A DNA stretch of 64,000 nucleotides from Colwellia demingiae (GTDB lineage: Bacteria > Pseudomonadota > Gammaproteobacteria > Enterobacterales > Alteromonadaceae), in contig NZ_VOLT01000001.1 of the NCBI RefSeq assembly GCF_007954275.1, positions 372,001 through 436,000 of the forward strand, in the 5' to 3' direction. Made by a program: the position numbers and the translations under genes. This document shows positions 29,879 through 41,147 of this stretch, in pieces. The notes below the pieces were generated by a model. It did no database searches. It worked only from the letters and a program-made list of their open reading frames with translations, and had not been told where the DNA came from. Each line of letters opens with the position of its first letter. Within the stretch, counting starts at the first letter, position 1.

Positions 29879-30883
29879 ATGTTTAACAACCAACTTCCCC
29901 TCGTCGATTTACATCGTCATCTAGATGGAAATATACGCCCAAAAACTATTTGGCAGTTAGCACAACAAAATAATATCAAATTACCCACAGACAACTTTGA
30001 GGCGTTTATCCCTCATGTACAAATCACTGATAGTGAAGCTGACCTTCTTGCCTTTTTGAAAAAGCTTGATTGGGGTGTTGGTGTGCTGAAGTCTCTAGAT
30101 GATGTTGTACGAATCGGTTTTGAGAATGTTGAAGATGCTCATAACGCTAATATTGATTATGCTGAATTAAGGTTTTCGCCCTATTACATCGCCATGGCGC
30201 ACAACTTACCAATAGAAGGTGTGGTAGAAGCAATTATTGAAGGGGTAAATCAGGGTAGAGATAAGTTTACTACTAAAATTAATTTAATGGGTATTTTAAG
30301 TCGTACCTTTGGTGTTGAACACTGCCAAAGTGAACTCAATGCCCTGCTCGCTTATAAAGACGATTTAGTTGCGATAGACCTTGCTGGCGATGAATATAAT
30401 TTTCCAGGCAGCCTTTTTGAAAGTCACTTCAAACAAGTAAACGATGCGGGACTCAATATTAGTGTCCATGCCGGTGAAGCCGCTGGACCTGAAAGTGTTT
30501 GGCATGCTATTAAAACACTAGGCGCAACACGCATTGGTCATGGTGTGGCTTGTGCTAGCGATCAAGCATTAATGGACTACATGCGAGAAAATCAAATAAG
30601 CATAGAGTCTTGTCTTACTTCTAACTACCAAACAGGAACGATTAAAGATTTGGCAGTACACCCAGTGAAAACATTTTTAGCAAACGGTCTTACCGTTTGC
30701 TTAAACACTGATGACCCTGCGGTTGAAAATATTGAGCTTGCTGGCGAATTTCAGCTGGCACGTGAAGTACTTGGATTGAATACAGATCAAATCAGCCAAT
30801 TACAACGAAATGCTGTACAAATGAGTTTTTTATCTGAACTAGAAAAGAAAGCACTTCTCAATATTAAACAAAAATCACTATAG
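29879..30883 (+). CDS. add: Adenosine deaminase
   Basis: Enzyme of 334 residues that turns adenosine and deoxyadenosine into inosine compounds. The zinc histidines are in LVDLHRHLDGNIRP near the start, HAGEAAGPESVW (approximately 198) holds His and the catalytic Glu, IGHGVA follows, and LNTDDPAVENIELAGEF supplies the Asp. The N-terminal block is nearly the same as E. coli Add. It is downstream of a MITE-like element that may separate it from the nuclease-like gene. Products flow to DeoD, encoded next. Confidence 0.95.
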   Translation: MFNNQLPLVDLHRHLDGNIRPKTIWQLAQQNNIKLPTDNFEAFIPHVQITDSEADLLAFLKKLDWGVGVLKSLDDVVRIGFENVEDAHNANIDYAELRFSPYYIAMAHNLPIEGVVEAIIEGVNQGRDKFTTKINLMGILSRTFGVEHCQSELNALLAYKDDLVAIDLAGDEYNFPGSLFESHFKQVNDAGLNISVHAGEAAGPESVWHAIKTLGATRIGHGVACASDQALMDYMRENQISIESCLTSNYQTGTIKDLAVHPVKTFLANGLTVCLNTDDPAVENIELAGEFQLAREVLGLNTDQISQLQRNAVQMSFLSELEKKALLNIKQKSL

Positions 30884-31997: not shown

Positions 31998-34283
31998 TTA
32001 AAAGAAATTAGCTTTAAATTCTACCCCAAAGAAACGAGGTTCATTGGTGTAGCCTGTTAAGTTATTAAAATCAATTGCACCTGTAAGCTTTTCTTCATCA
32101 AGAATATTTCTCGAAAAAACAGCTACTTCATATTCTGCATCACCAGCGAACCATTCATAACCAACGCGTAAACCACCTTCCGTTATAGCATCACCCATAA
32201 ATTCTTTAGATTCATATAAGAAGAAGCTGACTTCACTACGATAAGACCAATCGGTATAAATATATAGCTCACCATTACCAATTTCTTTGGTCCAACGAGC
32301 GCTTAAATTACCAATCCACTCAGGTGACTGTGGTAATGAATTACCATCAATAATAACTTGTCCATCACTATTAATAGGATCTGTAATTGTACAACCACCA
32401 CCACATCCTGCAACAGAGATAGTATCATCCTGCAACTCGGTATGGTTGTAACTTAAGCTAGCACCAAAGACCAAGTCTTCAGTTGCCCAAATTTCTGAGT
32501 CAAGCTCAAAACCATAACCTACGGCTTTATCAGCATTTAATAAACTGGCAACGTTACCAGTACCACCAACCGCTGTCAGCTGTTGGTCATCAACAACATA
32601 ATAAAATACTGAGCCATCAATACGCGCCGTATTCTCTAACATAGTTGATTTAAAGCCAGTTTCAATTGACGTTACTAACTCTGAATCAGCGGTAGTATGA
32701 GAGGCAGAAAATAGTAAACTACGACCTTGAATGCTTGGTGCACGATAACCTTTTGCTACACGGGCATAAAGGTTCGTTTCGTCTGTCATACGGTAATTAA
32801 CACTAACATCACCGCTTACTTGTGAATCATCAACGGTAGCATTTTCACTAAATCCTGGAGCACCGAAAGGCGACTGAACTAACGTACCATCCCAAACACG
32901 TTCATCATCTGAATAACGAATACCTGCGGTTAAATTCAGTTTATCTGAAAGCTCAAAGTCCATCGAAGCAAAAACAGCCCAAGCCGTTGTTTCCATATTT
33001 TGAACAGCGATACCATTTTGATTACCACCACCCAATGTATCAAAGCTCAGGTTGTTTATAGTTAAATCTTCATTGAAATAGAAGAAACCTACTTGATAAT
33101 CAAATTTTCCAAGATCGTTACTAGACAATCTAAGTTCTTGAGTTATTTGAGAGTGATCAGGCATTTTAGCACCTGTTTCTGAGGTGAAAGGAATAAAACC
33201 AGGCCCCATATTTGCTGGATCACAACCAGGAATAGCTGTGATCCCACAGCCGTAACCACCATCAATATCACCTACCGAGAACATTTCTGCAGATTCATAA
33301 CCTGTTACAGAGGTTATTGTATGGCTGCCAAAGTCATAATCTAACTTTAAGCTGGATCCGTTCATTTCAATGGTTTGATTATTTCGTGAAGCCGCATCGT
33401 GATATACAACTTCGCGATCAAAATCATCGACTAAGTCATTAGTGCCTGGCTTAATTATATTCGCTCTAAAAACACGAGCATCGGCATCTGCATCTCTAAA
33501 ATGATAATTAAACAAGGCTGAAAAATTATCACTTGGTTCCCATAAAAGCTGTATTCTTCCGGCTGTTTCTCCGTAACCACCCAGCTGATCATCTTGTTCA
33601 AAACCGGGCGCTTTATTGTCTATCCAATCATCTCTATCTTGCTGTAAAAAAGCAACACGAGCAGACAAGGTATCAGTTAAACCACCACCTACCGCTAAAC
33701 GTAAATCTGTAGAGTTGTAGCTGCCATATGAAGCTGAAACCGTAGCGTCAAAATCTTGAGTCGGTTTTTTTGATTGAACCTTAATAATACCTGCAGTGGT
33801 ATTACGTCCAAACAAAGTACCTTGAGGACCACGAAGCACCTCAACCCGTTCAAGATCGAACATAGGCATGCCTTTGGTTAAGGCATTTTCTAAAACAACA
33901 TCATCATAAATTAATGATACGGGTTGTGATGCAAGTAAATCAAAGTCTGTGTTACCTAAGCCACGAATGTAGAAGCGTGGAAAAGTTCGTCCAAATGAAG
34001 ATTCAATTAATAAGCTAGGTACTTTTGCAGATAAAGAACGTACATCCATGCCTGATGAGCCTAAAACTTCTAGTTTTTTACTTGTTAACGCTGAAACTGA
34101 AATAGGTACATCTTTAACATTCTCGGTTCTTTTACGTGCGGTTACTTCTATAACCTCAACGCCAACAACTTTTGCTCTTGTTGTTTCTTCTGCTGCTAGG
34201 GCACTAGTTGAAAAACCAGTAACACTCGCTATGATTGACGCTTGCACACAAAGTGACAATGCGCTTTTTTTAAATATTTTCAT
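31998..34283 (-). CDS. TonB-dependent receptor, probable nucleoside-related uptake
   Basis: Outer-membrane receptor of 761 residues. A signal peptide (cleavage near ALA-AEE) is followed by a TonB box-like EVIEVTARK, the plug domain with IRGLGNTDFD, RVEVLRGPQGTLFGRNTTAGIIKVQSKKP and a 22-strand barrel ending in FGVEFKANFF with a C-terminal Phe. It imports a substrate too big or too dilute for porins. Its neighbours deoD, deoB and udk suggest a nucleoside, nucleotide or oligonucleotide ligand; no direct ligand evidence exists. I see no good RutR-type site in its upstream region. Confidence 0.85.
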   Translation of the reverse strand: MKIFKKSALSLCVQASIIASVTGFSTSALAAEETTRAKVVGVEVIEVTARKRTENVKDVPISVSALTSKKLEVLGSSGMDVRSLSAKVPSLLIESSFGRTFPRFYIRGLGNTDFDLLASQPVSLIYDDVVLENALTKGMPMFDLERVEVLRGPQGTLFGRNTTAGIIKVQSKKPTQDFDATVSASYGSYNSTDLRLAVGGGLTDTLSARVAFLQQDRDDWIDNKAPGFEQDDQLGGYGETAGRIQLLWEPSDNFSALFNYHFRDADADARVFRANIIKPGTNDLVDDFDREVVYHDAASRNNQTIEMNGSSLKLDYDFGSHTITSVTGYESAEMFSVGDIDGGYGCGITAIPGCDPANMGPGFIPFTSETGAKMPDHSQITQELRLSSNDLGKFDYQVGFFYFNEDLTINNLSFDTLGGGNQNGIAVQNMETTAWAVFASMDFELSDKLNLTAGIRYSDDERVWDGTLVQSPFGAPGFSENATVDDSQVSGDVSVNYRMTDETNLYARVAKGYRAPSIQGRSLLFSASHTTADSELVTSIETGFKSTMLENTARIDGSVFYYVVDDQQLTAVGGTGNVASLLNADKAVGYGFELDSEIWATEDLVFGASLSYNHTELQDDTISVAGCGGGCTITDPINSDGQVIIDGNSLPQSPEWIGNLSARWTKEIGNGELYIYTDWSYRSEVSFFLYESKEFMGDAITEGGLRVGYEWFAGDAEYEVAVFSRNILDEEKLTGAIDFNNLTGYTNEPRFFGVEFKANFF

Positions 34284-34443: not shown

Positions 34444-35658
34444 TTACTTACGATATAGATCTGACAGAAAGCTTGTGCCGTAATCCATTGCTTCTACATT
34501 AAATAATTCAGCGACACTTTGTCCTAAATCAGCGAAAGTCTTACGGTTACCAAGGTTTACAGAGTCAATCTGATGATGATAAGCAATAATAGGTACATAC
34601 TCCCGAGTATGCTCAGTTCCAGACCATGTTGGATCACAGCCATGATCAGCAGTTAAGAAGAGTACATCATCTGCAGACATCGCATGAAATAGCTCAGGAA
34701 TACGAACATCAAGTGCTTCAAGCTCTCTGGCATATCCAATAGCATCACGTCGATGACCAAAGTCTTGATCAAAGTTCACTAAATTAGTGAAAATGAGTGA
34801 ATTGTCTTGTGCTGTATTGATATGATCTAAGGTGGCATCAAAAAGTGCATTAAGCCCTGTCGCTTTTGTTTTTTCATCAATACCTTGATGAGCGAAAATA
34901 TCAGCAATTTTACCAACACTGATAACCTTAGTCCCTGCCTGTGATATTTTATCAAGTACCGTAGGAGCTGGTGGTAACACCGAGTAATCTCTACGGTTAC
35001 CTGTTCTAGAGAAATTATCGGCACTATCCCCTACAAAGGGTCTGGCAATAACACGTCCTATATTTAAATCACGAAGTAACTCTCGAACCGTTTCACAGTA
35101 TTTATAGAGGTTATCTAAACCAAAATGTTCTTCATGCGCAGCTATTTGAAAAACACTATCGGCCGAGGTATAACAAATAGGTAAACCTGTTTTAATATGC
35201 TCTTGTCCTAAACGGGTAAGAATTTCAGTACCTGAAGCATGGCAATTACCTAACATGCCATCAAAGCCTGTTTCACGATTAATATCGTCAATTAAGGATG
35301 TGGGAAAGCTATTTTTTTTGTCGGTAAAATATCCCCAGTCAAAAAGTACAGGTACTCCTGCCATCTCCCAGTGACCACTAGGTGTATCTTTACCAGTACT
35401 TATTTCTTGTGCGAAACCATAAGCGCCTTTATTTGGTTCTTGACCCTGATAAGGAAATTTTTGCTCAGAAGCTTGTTCACAAGCCTTTATCAACCCCAGT
35501 GCCGATAAGTTGGGTAAGAAAATCTCTTTACCTGTTTCGTTATAATAGGCGCGAGCTAGGTTAGCAAACGTATTTGCGCCCACATCACCAAAATCAACTG
35601 CATCTGGAGAATAACCGATACCCAAGCTATCAATAACTATAATTATTGCACGAGCCAT
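34444..35658 (-). CDS. deoB: Phosphopentomutase
   Basis: Metalloenzyme of 404 residues of the alkaline phosphatase superfamily that converts (deoxy)ribose 1-phosphate to the 5-phosphate. Motifs: AIIIVIDSLGIGYSPDA with the first metal Asp, STGKDTPSGHWEMAG with the phosphorylated Thr, HFGLDNLY, NFDQDFGHRRDAIGYA and LTADHGCDPTW. It links DeoA/DeoD products to DeoC. An AAAAAGGAAACATT ribosome region precedes the ATG. It is divergent from the udk operon, and the two share a RutR-type operator at 35712-35727. Confidence 0.96.
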   Translation of the reverse strand: MARAIIIVIDSLGIGYSPDAVDFGDVGANTFANLARAYYNETGKEIFLPNLSALGLIKACEQASEQKFPYQGQEPNKGAYGFAQEISTGKDTPSGHWEMAGVPVLFDWGYFTDKKNSFPTSLIDDINRETGFDGMLGNCHASGTEILTRLGQEHIKTGLPICYTSADSVFQIAAHEEHFGLDNLYKYCETVRELLRDLNIGRVIARPFVGDSADNFSRTGNRRDYSVLPPAPTVLDKISQAGTKVISVGKIADIFAHQGIDEKTKATGLNALFDATLDHINTAQDNSLIFTNLVNFDQDFGHRRDAIGYARELEALDVRIPELFHAMSADDVLFLTADHGCDPTWSGTEHTREYVPIIAYHHQIDSVNLGNRKTFADLGQSVAELFNVEAMDYGTSFLSDLYRK

Positions 35659-35893: not shown

Positions 35894-36544
35894 TTGAAAC
35901 CAATTAAACCAACAATTATTGCTATCGCTGGCCCTTCGGCCTCAGGCAAGACACTTTTTGCCAAAACAATACATGATGAGCTTATTGAAGAGCTTGGTGA
36001 AAGTGGTATTTCTATTATTTATGAAGATGCTTATTATCGTGACCAATCGCATTTATCGATGCAAGAGCGTGAGCAAACAAACTATGATCATCCCAGTGCA
36101 TTTGAGCACGAACTTTTATCCGAGCACTTAAATAAACTCACTAAAAACCAGACAATTAATAGCCCTGTTTATTGCTACAAAACTCATACGCGGCTCAATG
36201 AAAGTAAAATTTTTTCCCCCACTAAAATAATTCTAGTGGAAGGTATTTTACTATTATCTAACAAAGAATTAAGAGAGTGTTTTGACATTAAGGTCTACAT
36301 GGATACACCCTTAGACATATGTCTCATTAGAAGAATTAAACGAGATTTAGTTGAACGTAACCGCAGTATTGAATCGGTCACTAACCAATATTTGGCAACG
36401 GTTAGGCCTATGTATTATCAATTTATTGAACCATCCAAAGCTTGGGCTGATATTGTTATTACCCGAGGCGGTAAAAATAGAATGGCAATTGAGGTGATCA
36501 AAGCAAAAATTCGACAACTTTCACAATTACCCCCACAACAATAA
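35894..36544 (+). CDS. udk: Uridine kinase-family P-loop kinase
   Basis: Kinase of 216 residues with a Walker A GPSASGKTLFAKTI at residues 11-24, EDAYYRDQSHLS and NYDHPSAFEHELL, which match the uridine/cytidine kinase acceptor sites, and the lid RRIKRDLVERNRSIESV. It phosphorylates uridine and cytidine in the cytoplasm. The start is TTG at 35894 with AGG upstream; no ATG fits the P-loop distance. It begins a run with nupC-type gene, deoC and tdk, and these probably form one operon. Confidence 0.9.
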   Translation: MKPIKPTIIAIAGPSASGKTLFAKTIHDELIEELGESGISIIYEDAYYRDQSHLSMQEREQTNYDHPSAFEHELLSEHLNKLTKNQTINSPVYCYKTHTRLNESKIFSPTKIILVEGILLLSNKELRECFDIKVYMDTPLDICLIRRIKRDLVERNRSIESVTNQYLATVRPMYYQFIEPSKAWADIVITRGGKNRMAIEVIKAKIRQLSQLPPQQ

Positions 36545-36570
36545 CCAGAATAATAATATAAGAGGTATTC

Positions 36571-37815
36571 ATGGAATTAGGTGCTTTAAGAGGTGTACTA
36601 GGAATTTTCGTTTTGTTAGGTATCGCCTACGCCTTATCAAGTGGAAAAAAATCAATAAATATTCGCACAGTCGGTTTAGCTTTTGCACTACAAGTTCTGC
36701 TTGGCGCTTTTGTTTTATATGTTCCCTTTGGTAAAGATGTTTTGCTGTCTATGACCAATGGCGTGCAAAATGTTATTGATAGTGCAAAAGTAGGTATTAA
36801 CTTTCTTTTTGGTGGTTTAGGTACCGATGCCATGTTCGACAATGGTGTAGGATTTGTCTTTGCCATCAGAGTGTTGCCTAATATTATTTTCTTTTCATCT
36901 TTAATTGCTGTGCTTTATTACCTTGGCATAATGCAATGGGTGATTAGAATTATCGGCGGTGCATTACAAAAGCTTTTAAAAACAAGCAAACCTGAGTCAC
37001 TTTCAGCTACGGCCAACATATTTGTTGGCCAAACAGAAGCCCCCCTTATTATTCGTCCCTACATTGCAAAAATGACCCAATCAGAGCTATTTGCCATCAT
37101 GGTTGGTGGACTAGCATCCGTTGCAGGTTCAATTTTAGCGTGATACGCTGGCCTCGGTATTGAACTAAAATATCTCATTGCCGCTTCATTTATGGCCGCC
37201 CCAGGTGGCCTATTAATGGCTAAGATCATTTGTCCTGAAACTGAACACGATAAGATAGTTACCGAGTCAGTCGATTATGATGATGAAAATGAGAAACCAA
37301 CAAATGTTATTGATGCCGCAGCTTCTGGTGCTGCATCTGGTCTTAAATTAGCGGTAAATGTCGGTGCAATGTTACTTGCCTTCATAGCGCTAATAGCACT
37401 GTTAAATTCCCTCATTGGCGGTATTTTTGGCTTATTCGGTTATGAAGACATCACCATTGAATTTTTCTTAGGTTACCTTTTTGCACCTTTTGCTTATGTT
37501 ATTGGTGTTCCAGTACATGAAATGCTGCAAGCAGGTAGTTTTATTGGACAAAAAGTTGTCGTTAATGAATTCTTTGCCTATGTTAATTTTGTTGAAATCA
37601 AAGATACCTTAAGCCCCGCAACTCAAGCAATTGTCACTTTTGCGTTATGTGGTTTTGCAAATTTATCATCAATAGCCATTTTACTTGGTGGCATAGGTTC
37701 GATGGCGCCGAGTCGCAGACATGACATTGCAAGATTAGGCATGCGAGCCATGATGGCAGCAACTTTAGCCAATCTCATGAGCGCGGCAATTGCTGGTATA
37801 TTTATTTCCTTATAG
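36571..37815 (+). pseudogene. nupC: Concentrative nucleoside transporter (NupC/CNT) with an in-frame TGA
   Basis: One 415-codon frame is broken by a single TGA at 37141-37143. Upstream is MELGALRGVLGIFVLLGIAYALSS through GQTEAPLIIRPYIA and GGLASVAGSILA; downstream, in the same frame, the sequence goes on with [22 protein letters not shown] and runs to a proper end. Family members have Gly at the broken position (a GSxLAGYA pattern), so GGA to TGA is the simplest change. The total length fits the roughly 400-420-residue CNT family. The AGAGG site and position between udk and deoC suggest an active operon. Alternatives are a sequencing error or read-through of UGA. If it is a real nonsense mutation, the N-terminal piece lacks half the transport core. 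Confidence 0.85.
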
Positions 37816-37821
37816 GAAGTA

Positions 37822-37892
37822 TATATCCGCTTCACTTGAAGATGCATGATTCAGACGTCCTGAAACGAGCATCTTCAAGTGAAGCGGGTATA
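37822..37892. repeat. Strong palindromic repeat between nupC and deoC
   Basis: Perfect 19-bp arms, 37827-37845 (starting CCGCTTCACTTGAAG) and 37869-37887 (ending CAAGTGAAGCGG), extended by TATAT/GTATA to about 24 bp with one mismatch. The loop is 23 nt. The ends (TATACCC plus CTTGAA) resemble the repeat at 871-915. In the operon mRNA it would form a stable stem before deoC. Confidence 0.75.
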
Positions 37893-37948: not shown

Positions 37949-38722
37949 ATGTCTGATATTAAAGCAGTAGCCCAACGAGCACTGTCACTAATGGATTTAA
38001 CTAGCCTTACCAACACAGAGACTGACCAAGACATTATTGATCTTTGTCATCAAGCTAAATCACCTGCCGGCGAAACGGCCGCTATTTGTATTTTCCCACG
38101 CTTTATTCCTTTGGCTAAAAAAGTACTAAAAGCGCAACAAACACCTCACATAAAAGTAGCAACCGTCACTAATTTCCCACAGGGTAATGACGATCTTGAT
38201 ATTGCACTGGCAGAAACAAAAGCGGCTGTCGCTTATGGTGCTGATGAAGTCGATTTAGTGTTTCCTTACCGTGCGTTAATACAAGGTAATGAGACTATCG
38301 GTTTTGATATGGTAAAAGTATGTAAACAAGCATGTAGCGGCAGTGCTAAGCTTAAAGTAATCATTGAAACGGGTGAACTTAAAACGGAAGCACTTATTCG
38401 CAAAGCTAGTGAAATTTCTATTAATGCCGGCGCTGATTTTATTAAAACCTCAACAGGTAAAGTAGCCGTTAATGCCACACCTGAAGCGGCTAAAATCATG
38501 TTAACAGTGATAAAAAATAAAAATACCGCTGTGGGTTTTAAACCTGCCGGAGGCGTTAGAAATGCCGCTGATGCTGCTATTTACCTTAACCTGGCAGATA
38601 GTATATTAGGTAATGAATGGGCTGAAGCTAACCACTTTCGCTTTGGTGCCAGCAGCTTACTGACTAGTTTGTTAGACACTTTAGGTCACCAAAGCACCGA
38701 TCACAAAACAAGTAGCTATTAA
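37949..38722 (+). CDS. deoC: Deoxyribose-phosphate aldolase
   Basis: Class I aldolase of 257 residues that splits 2-deoxyribose 5-phosphate into acetaldehyde and glyceraldehyde 3-phosphate. The Schiff-base Lys is in [12 protein letters not shown] (approximately residue 170) and the second Lys in [19 protein letters not shown] and [10 protein letters not shown] are also typical. It closes the route from deoxynucleosides to central metabolism, with DeoB supplying the substrate. Confidence 0.96.
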
Positions 38723-38758: not shown

Positions 38759-39337
38759 ATGGCTCAGCTATATTTTTATTTCTCTTCAATGAATGCAGGT
38801 AAATCAACACATCTACTGCAATCATCTTATAACTATCAAGAGCGTAACTTAACTACCGCTATATATACCGCTAAAATTGATGATAGATTTGCACAAGGTA
38901 AGGTAGCGTCTCGCCTTGGTATAGACGCAGATGCCTTTCTATTTGACAGTAACAGTAATCTTTATATAGAAGTTCAGCAAAAGAACAACGCGAGCAAAAT
39001 TGATTGTGTTTTGATTGATGAAGCTCAGTTTTTATCTACTGAACAGGTTAGGCAGCTCACTGATATTGTTGACTTGTTGCATATTCCTGTACTTGCCTAT
39101 GGTATTCGTACCGACTTTTTAGGGCAAACCTTTTCAGGCAGTGCTGCTTTACTTGCTTGGGCTGATAAGTTAGTTGAATTGAAGACCATTTGTCACTGTG
39201 GCCGTAAAGCTAACTTTGTTGTAAGGCGCGATAAAAACGGTAATGTGGTTCAAGGTGGAGAGCAAGTAGAGGTTGGTGGTAATGAACGCTATGAACCCCT
39301 TTGTCGTGCTCACTTTAAACAACTTGTTTGGCAATAA
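38759..39337 (+). CDS. tdk: Thymidine kinase
   Basis: Type II thymidine kinase of 192 residues. P-loop [13 protein letters not shown], Walker [11 protein letters not shown], the lasso region [12 protein letters not shown] with zinc Cys, and the C-terminal [16 protein letters not shown] with the last zinc ligands. It phosphorylates thymidine and deoxyuridine for salvage. Last gene of the probable udk-nupC-deoC-tdk run, and it ends convergently with deoA. Confidence 0.95.
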
Positions 39338-39399: not shown

Positions 39400-40716
39400 T
39401 TAATATATTACAGGTGGCAGCTCAGGACTCTCTTCAGAGTAAGTAAGCGCATTATTAAATTGTTCGACGGCTCTATCTGCAGAGTTTTCATCTTTGGCAT
39501 GAACCCGAGCAATCACTTCGCCACGATTCACTTGTACACCCAGGGGTAATATCCGATCAAAACCAACGCTGTGATCTACCTGCTGTGTGGGGGCGGTTCT
39601 CCCTCCACCTAAACCAACCACCGACATGCCAATAGCACGGGTATCCATTTGCGCAATATAGCCATGCTGTGATGCCCTCACCTCGGTAATAATATTCGCC
39701 TTCTTCATTGAGTCCCAAGGTTTTTCAACAAAATTTTTCGGTCCACCTAACGCTGACACCATACGATCAAATACTTCAGCTGCTAAGCCCGAACTTAACA
39801 CGCGATTAATTTTTGCATGAGCATCTTTTTCATCGCTAGCCAGGTTTGTGTTAATAAGCATTGCACTGGCGAGTGCTTGTACAATTTGATGTAAGCGAGG
39901 CTCTCGTTGTTTACCGGTTAAGTATTTAACTGTTTCATACATTTCGATGGCATTACCTGCACTGGTACCTAACACCTGATTCATATCAGTAATAATAGCT
40001 TGTGTTTTAACGCCAGCCCCATTAGCAACACTGGTAATACTCTCTGCAAGTGCTTGAGCATCCGCTAAGTTATTCATCATTGCCCCGTTGCCGACTTTAA
40101 CATCCATCACTAAGACATCAAGCCCAGCGGCAAGTTTTTTAGATAATATAGACGCTGTGATCAACGGGATTGACTCAACTGTTGCGGTAACATCTCGAAT
40201 TGAATACAAACGTTTGTCGGCAGGCGCTAAGTTATCTGTTTGTGAAATAATAGCAACACCAACGTCTTTAACAATGCGCTTAAATTCATCGATGCTTGGC
40301 TCTACGTTAAAACCTGCAATACTTTCTAGTTTATCTGACGTCCCTCCTGTGTGACCTAAGCCACGACCAGAAATCATAGGAACATAACCGCCGCAAGCAG
40401 CAACGATAGCAGCTAACATAAAGCTAACTTTATCACCTACACCACCTGTGGAATGTTTATCAACAATAGGTCCATCAAAACCTTCCCAGCTCAATACATC
40501 ACCTGAGTGCATCATCGCTTTAGTAAAGTTAACCCTTTCATCGGTAGTCATGCCATTTTGGAAAATAGCCATTGCCATAGCGCCTACTTGGCTATCTGAA
40601 AAGTTGCCGTCAACAAGGCCTGAAACAAAGCCATTTATCGCTTGTTCATCTAATATTTTACCATCACGTTTCAGTCGAATAATCTCTTGAGGGATGATTT
40701 TAGCGGTTACAGACAT
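39400..40716 (-). CDS. deoA: Thymidine phosphorylase
   Basis: Pyrimidine nucleoside phosphorylase of 438 residues. The family block KHSTGGVGDKVSFMLAAI (approximately 83-100) is intact, and SGRGLGHTGGTSDKLESI follows. It releases thymine or uracil and deoxyribose 1-phosphate; these bases are the ligands of RutR in E. coli. An AAGGA site precedes the ATG, and the gene lies 11 bp after cdd, so cdd-deoA is one transcript under the RutR-type operator. Confidence 0.96.
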   Translation of the reverse strand: MSVTAKIIPQEIIRLKRDGKILDEQAINGFVSGLVDGNFSDSQVGAMAMAIFQNGMTTDERVNFTKAMMHSGDVLSWEGFDGPIVDKHSTGGVGDKVSFMLAAIVAACGGYVPMISGRGLGHTGGTSDKLESIAGFNVEPSIDEFKRIVKDVGVAIISQTDNLAPADKRLYSIRDVTATVESIPLITASILSKKLAAGLDVLVMDVKVGNGAMMNNLADAQALAESITSVANGAGVKTQAIITDMNQVLGTSAGNAIEMYETVKYLTGKQREPRLHQIVQALASAMLINTNLASDEKDAHAKINRVLSSGLAAEVFDRMVSALGGPKNFVEKPWDSMKKANIITEVRASQHGYIAQMDTRAIGMSVVGLGGGRTAPTQQVDHSVGFDRILPLGVQVNRGEVIARVHAKDENSADRAVEQFNNALTYSEESPELPPVIY

Positions 40717-40727
40717 GAATTAAATCC

Positions 40728-41147
40728 TTATAAGTCTAATAAATCTTTTGGGGTGAATGCATCTGGTAATAATTGTTGTACCGTCCAGATTTTTTGGTCA
40801 TTTTTGTGGTTTACTGCCACCACTAGCGCTGATTGCTCGAAAAATTCAGCAATCACTTGTCGACATGCACCACACGGAGGAGTCAGCTTGTCTTGCTCTG
40901 TGTAAATCATGATGAACTTAAACGTCTGTTTCCCCTGAACAACAGCATGACTAATACAGTTTCGTTCGGCGCAAATGGTCAAACCATAAGAGGCATTTTC
41001 AACATTACAGCCGTTAACGATATTACCATCCATAGTTAATGCTGATGCACCGACATGGAATTGGCTGTAAGGAGCATAAGCGCGTTGGTAAGCTTCTTTT
41101 GCAGCTGATAGTAGCTCATCAAAACGCTCTATTTTATTTTTATCCAT
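40728..41147 (-). CDS. cdd: Cytidine deaminase
   Basis: Homotetrameric-type cytidine deaminase of 139 residues. The zinc site is CAERNCISHA (Cys plus catalytic Glu) and PPCGACRQVI with two Cys. NGCNVENASYGLTICAE is diagnostic. It converts cytidine and deoxycytidine to uridine compounds, which DeoA or Udk then use. First gene of cdd-deoA; the RutR-type operator lies 53 bp upstream. Confidence 0.95.
   Translation of the reverse strand: MDKNKIERFDELLSAAKEAYQRAYAPYSQFHVGASALTMDGNIVNGCNVENASYGLTICAERNCISHAVVQGKQTFKFIMIYTEQDKLTPPCGACRQVIAEFFEQSALVVAVNHKNDQKIWTVQQLLPDAFTPKDLLDL

Follow-up and report, generated by a model that had tools for sequence, protein, structure and literature searches.

A single in-frame TGA interrupts the nupC-type nucleoside transporter gene of a Colwellia genome, probably as a very recent nonsense mutation

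Results

An interrupted transporter gene within an intact set of salvage genes

The window, by which we mean the whole stretch of 64,000 nucleotides analyzed here, spans positions 372001-436000 of contig 13 in a Colwellia genome of 5.23 Mb (37 contigs). It harbors a gene for a nupC-type concentrative nucleoside transporter (CNT), which is interrupted by one in-frame TGA and surrounded by nucleoside salvage genes. The features of the locus are given below in window coordinates; G033 is the nearest relative among the genomes compared.

29879-30883, + strand: add-like adenosine deaminase gene, intact (profile match; G033 comparison)
34444-35658, - strand: deoB-like phosphopentomutase gene (Metalloenzyme superfamily), intact (Pfam; G033 comparison)
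35894-36544, + strand: udk-like uridine kinase gene (PRK family), intact (Pfam; G033 comparison)
36560-36565, + strand: AAGAGG, likely ribosome-binding site, 5 bases 5' of the nupC ATG (sequence)
36571-37815, + strand: nupC-type concentrative nucleoside transporter gene, interrupted; 190 codons, TGA, 223 codons, TAG (translation, profile matches, 3tij alignment)
36571-37143, + strand: N-terminal part, closing at the TGA and carrying Nucleos_tra2_N, the greater part of Gate including HP1 (GQTEAP), and the beginning of TM4 (Pfam; alignment to vcCNT)
37141-37143, + strand: in-frame TGA at codon 191, equivalent to vcCNT Gly191 of TM4; the next base is T (translation, relatives, vcCNT alignment)
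37144-37815, + strand: C-terminal part, from the rest of TM4 to the end, with Nucleos_tra2_C and conservation kept (Pfam; codon constraint)
37203-37208, + strand: AGGTGG, Shine-Dalgarno-like, seven bases 5' of the in-frame ATG at 37216 (sequence)
37822-37892, no strand assigned: palindromic repeat element in the nupC-deoC gap (near-perfect palindrome; alignment of window and G033, folding)
37949-38722, + strand: deoC-like deoxyribose-phosphate aldolase gene, intact (Pfam; G033 comparison)
38759-39337, + strand: tdk thymidine kinase gene, intact (Pfam; G033 comparison)
39400-40716, - strand: deoA-like pyrimidine-nucleoside phosphorylase gene, intact (profile match; G033 comparison)
40728-41147, - strand: cdd-like cytidine deaminase gene, intact (profile match; G033 comparison)

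The nupC frame is the same throughout, continuing past the TGA without a shift up to its closing TAG at 37813-37815, and the one uninterrupted reading frame of a CNT/NupC transporter is broken here at codon 191. Family membership was assessed with the models TIGR00804, PF01773, PF07670 and PF07662. The first part of the gene matched Nucleos_tra2_N and Gate and the second part Nucleos_tra2_C, all over the Pfam cut-offs, and the protein read through with X at the stop scored 472.3 bits against the NCBIfam nupC model (TIGR00804, cut-off 442), whereas its halves alone reached 204.3 and 256.5 bits. With the TGA read as Gly, residues 7-413 aligned with the Vibrio cholerae transporter vcCNT (PDB 3tij; E 1.2e-152). 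The read-through product thus shares with vcCNT and TIGR00804 all three Pfam domains and a near full-length alignment, and differs from vcCNT in presenting a TGA where the latter has Gly191. Among the 50 window ORFs that G033 matches, three are terminated by TGA, and their frames run on to the next stop for 2, 11 and, in nupC, 223 codons, so the homologous run-on in nupC is not a product of chance. A prior reading of the window made without database searches (hereafter the sequence-only reading) had noted the unshifted frame with CNT residues on both sides, and had judged the flanking genes and the ribosome-binding site to be functional; the translation and Pfam domains, the intact salvage genes and the AAGAGG ahead of the ATG bear it out.

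The surroundings of nupC were compared with the matching 80 kb of G033, whose assembly consists of one contig of 5,373,180 bases and whose aligned stretches show 88-94% DNA identity to the window. This region contains 64 ORFs of at least 100 codons, 50 of which have a window counterpart, and among those 50 compared genes nupC presents the only true internal break. A second stop on the window side falls in the spurious extension that a start called too far upstream gives to a MerR-family gene, and the two stops on the G033 side correspond to a spurious start and a shorter C-terminal end. In the loci of 80 named relatives, some of them cut by contig ends, nupC was flanked within 600 bases by udk upstream and deoC downstream in 55 cases, by deoC only in nine, by udk only in two and by neither in 14. 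The TonB-dependent receptor gene beside the deoB-like gene (31998-34283, - strand) had no match above 60% identity in the compared 80 kb of G033, where a different ORF of 769 codons occupies its position.

The gap between nupC and deoC measures 133 bases in the window and 53 in G033, that is, 80 fewer. As RNA, positions 37816-37905 fold with -49.5 kcal/mol (z -12.2), and two motifs of the palindromic element were absent from the 400 bases after nupC in all 80 named loci. The element seems to be a reduced version of a dispersed, MITE-like element whose putative ends are TATACCCG...CGGGTATA. A genome search that scored 40 of its 100 initial candidates returned 93 match rows, which represent fewer elements because of the palindromic structure; 13 pairs of ends lying about 230 bases apart were fetched and aligned.

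Codon 191 encodes Gly in relatives

Among named relatives, those closest to the gene are Colwellia records. In G033, whose NupC protein is 98.3% identical to that of the window, codon 191 is GGA, and the two genes have equal length and align without gaps. Relatives were represented by 95 distinct DNA sequences derived from 122 loci, with paralogous second copies counted in and one genome compared per species; 12 of them show at least 90% identity, 50 show 80-90%, 32 show 60-80% and one shows 30%. Gly occupies position 191 in 93 of these sequences and Ala in the other two; none has a stop there, and their best alignments, each of at least 384 codons, contain no internal stop. The set excludes the same-genus genome G009 (locus L132), a partial gene in G022 (L146) that begins after codon 191, locus L147 and matches for which no locus was fetched. 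A TAA had been flagged once each in G010:C3 and G074:C4 by the first search, and the corresponding loci (L133 and L135) are free of internal stops in their best alignments.

The sequence-only reading had proposed that the family expects Gly at this site, that one base change would suffice, and that related genomes should be inspected at 37141; the comparison with relatives bears out the expected Gly, and a single G-to-T step from GGA to TGA is the supported explanation of the stop, as judged from the codons of relatives. An intact ortholog in a close relative, with a sense codon one base removed from the stop, is what a recent nonsense pseudogene presents. The absence of the TGA from all 95 relatives, in turn, runs contrary to programmed UGA readthrough.

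Codons beyond the stop remain under strong constraint

Between the window and G033, omega (NG86) is 0.036 before the stop and 0.017 after it. The read-through nupC has the seventh lowest omega among 50 window entries, and its C-terminal ORF, which is also listed separately, ranks third. Changes polarised with eight outgroups assign to the window lineage two amino-acid and 11 synonymous changes before the stop (five more synonymous changes being ambiguous) and two amino-acid and 16 synonymous changes after it (13 more being ambiguous). Besides the stop, the window NupC has no residue that is unique among the aligned relatives.

The part after the stop comprises 511 nonsynonymous and 158 synonymous sites. 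Neutral evolution over the whole branch would be expected to have produced about 52-73 amino-acid changes there, against the two seen (Poisson upper limit 6.3). By hand calculation, the gene has been free of constraint for at most about the final 9-12% of the branch leading from G033, or it still works. Because constraint is as strong beyond the stop as ahead of it, the stop is very young unless the gene is still functional, and the conservation fits a gene still in use equally well. The length shared with G033 and the low omega after the stop show that no further decay has accumulated, as in a recent nonsense pseudogene.

The truncated product would lack half of the transporter

In the structural alignment, residue 191 falls on chain position 197 of 3tij, and the offset of 6, set by Gln154 and Val188, equates it with vcCNT Gly191; both of those residues are named for vcCNT in PMC4139061, where Val188 is described as touching the base. 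Codon 191 is therefore three residues past the base-contacting Val/Ile 188, inside TM4. A product of 190 residues keeps HP1 and is devoid of TM5, TM6, HP2, TM7 and TM8, with HP2 and TM7 being the elements that bind ribose in vcCNT (PMC4139061). Since such a fragment is without the ribose-binding half and without TM6 of the scaffold, nucleoside uptake through NupC would be lost. By alignment, residue 191 probably corresponds to Ala378 of hCNT3, which, when changed to Cys, renders the transporter sensitive to block by a thiol reagent (PMC5465479).

Other uptake routes and nupC loss in other genomes

The sequence-only reading had raised the question of a second nupC elsewhere in the genome. A genome search found no second CNT, and redundancy through another CNT copy was accordingly rejected. 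An MFS protein matched Nuc_H_symport at 52 bits (cut-off 25.9), but it scored higher with MFS_1_like (299 bits) and passed only the general mfs model of NCBIfam, and was discarded as a nucleoside importer. The Bmp profile had no match in the genome, and a Tsx-like channel gave one weak match (29.0 versus 27.2 bits).

Among 38 same-genus genomes searched, eight had no nupC match, and they had no udk or deoC match either; because more of the block is missing in them, these genomes are no precedent for losing nupC alone. G058, a member of the same family, retains udk and deoC with no nupC match, and its locus (L204, G058:C10:1-6000) carries a deoA-like ORF after deoC and, between udk and deoC, an ORF of 269 codons that to the eye looks like an outer-membrane channel. 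G058 may thus be a precedent for keeping these genes in the absence of nupC. In G009 (G009:C2:650501-660500), nupC is spread over three frames, udk and deoC on either side of it are intact, and the site has a Gly codon (GGT); this assembly has nine contigs and 6% contamination, and the three frames may reflect either decay or indel errors.

A partial parallel is offered by nupC mutations selected with FUDR in E. coli (PMC7725501), where nupC is likewise hit and premature stops appear among the loss-of-function types, which are named there for the whole mutation set rather than for nupC alone. The present case differs in that no drug selection is known and that the salvage genes, tdk among them, are unbroken. 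In the literature library searched, no text joined Colwellia with a nucleoside transporter, with a pseudogene caused by a premature stop, or with the readthrough of UGA; PMC9241588 mentions NupC in passing only.

Discussion

The sequence-only reading had offered recent decay, a sequencing error or read-through as explanations of the TGA, and the evidence ranks a real nonsense mutation first, a sequencing error second and functional read-through third. We favor, with a probability of about 0.64, a real and very recent nonsense mutation that abolishes NupC transport in the only CNT-family gene found in the genome. A G-to-T change would have turned Gly codon 191 from GGA into TGA, and translation would halt in TM4 to yield a 190-residue fragment incapable of transport. 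Uptake via NupC would be gone, the kinase and catabolic genes around it would stay, and further decay would not yet have followed because the stop is young. The reality of the base, the inability of the fragment to transport and the youth of the stop as the cause of the missing decay are all inferred from the comparisons above.

A sequencing or assembly error, with G as the true base and the gene intact, is an unlikely explanation but the first to be weighed against a real mutation. It would account for a remainder of the gene conserved like an intact gene and for a stop seen in none of the 95 relatives, and the assembly is a draft in 37 contigs. Against it, this assembly is clean (99.98% complete, 0.56% contaminated), no other gene among the 50 compared in the window is truly broken inside, and the change is a substitution rather than a homopolymer indel.

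A leaky gene, in which the cell's own tRNA-Trp(CCA) occasionally inserts Trp at UGA 191 to give a little full-length NupC, appears improbable. The gene for this tRNA lies downstream of a tuf-like gene (G000:C21; L182:2261-2337, - strand). In the ARAGORN drawing and our numbering, the tRNA shows G.A at 27.43 as a mismatch, beneath which lie four pairs and above which an A26-U44 pair is drawn, and it carries what we take, judging against the E. coli tRNA, to be A24. The 27.43 mismatch and A24 have been tied in print to UGA readthrough, but the tRNA, mismatch included, is identical in G033 and is thus no new suppressor. According to PMC13092985, four-base-pair anticodon stems occur in 3438 (8.9%) of 38,615 bacterial tRNA-Trp genes and are associated with reduced UGA usage in 13 of the 19 orders tested, and overexpression of the E. 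coli C27A tRNA-Trp, which has such a stem, raises UGA readthrough about 2.5-fold. The same source cites an in vitro test in which C27A alone gave no readthrough, and its authors leave the effect at native levels open. The Colwellia tRNA resembles the four-base-pair class of PMC13092985 in its mismatch, CCA anticodon, standard code and low UGA usage; it differs by the additional A24, through which it would join the separate group of 2414 genes with A9C and/or G24A whose own effect that source leaves open. The A26-U44 pair, if tRNAscan-SE drew it, could also shift its class under the counting rule of PMC13092985.

Stop codon usage seems at first to favor such leakiness: UGA ends 20 of 391 ORFs (5.1%) in the window and G033 stretches although it makes up 31% of the stop-like triplets found there, while TAG ends 21% of ORFs versus 22% of such triplets (nupC being left out of this count, and the window and part of the G033 stretch being orthologous). 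UGA stops, however, are equally rare in Shewanella-type loci (1/69), are low in all other groups and are frequent only in Halomonas-type loci (22/39; 65% GC), as counted over 72 of the 80 named loci, with eight left out, in stretches that are orthologous and hence not independent. The rarity of UGA is therefore no specific evidence of leakiness, and its value as proof is weakened by the other Alteromonadales-type loci.

The complete conservation after the stop would suit a leaky gene. The UGA, in contrast, is followed by U, a context less prone to readthrough in E. coli (PMC5289835). No stem stands out 3' of the stop (z -1.64), and a recoding stem was rejected. Trp191 should also be badly tolerated, because only Gly or Ala occurs at this site in the 95 relatives and because Cys at the equivalent Ala378 of hCNT3 permits the thiol block (PMC5465479). 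A leaky Trp191 NupC may exist but would probably not function. The broader proposal that the lineage reads UGA leakily as Trp, with nupC a low-expression Trp191 importer and such UGA alleles tolerated for longer than elsewhere, is a speculation to which we assign little credence.

It is barely conceivable that the gene has become a split transporter, assembled from the N-terminal part and a C-terminal part re-initiated in frame at ATG 37192 or at ATG 37216, which AGGTGG precedes: re-initiation would omit the end of TM4 plus 16 or 24 further residues, the AGGTGG belongs to coding sequence, where it specifies Pro-Gly-Gly and its Shine-Dalgarno likeness may be meaningless, and none of the 95 relatives has a stop. 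Selenocysteine or a changed code for UGA, suggested by an in-frame TGA in a conserved gene, can be practically dismissed, as the sequence-only reading had anticipated for selenocysteine: the best SelB match in the genome (180.4 bits; cut-off 242.25) falls at two loci resembling EF-Tu, the best tRNA-Sec match is 43 bits (cut-off 47), the family residue is Gly and not Cys, and a code change is rejected because UGA ends other genes, including the two further TGA-terminated window ORFs with a G033 match.

Taken as a single case, the interrupted nupC is a further example of a young nonsense allele. The break itself is ordinary gene breakage, and it is the tRNA-Trp that deserves closer attention. 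If UGA is partly read, the window and G033 genes, with and without the stop and with a common tRNA-Trp, would form a natural reporter of readthrough at native tRNA levels, and uridine uptake would be its easily measured product.
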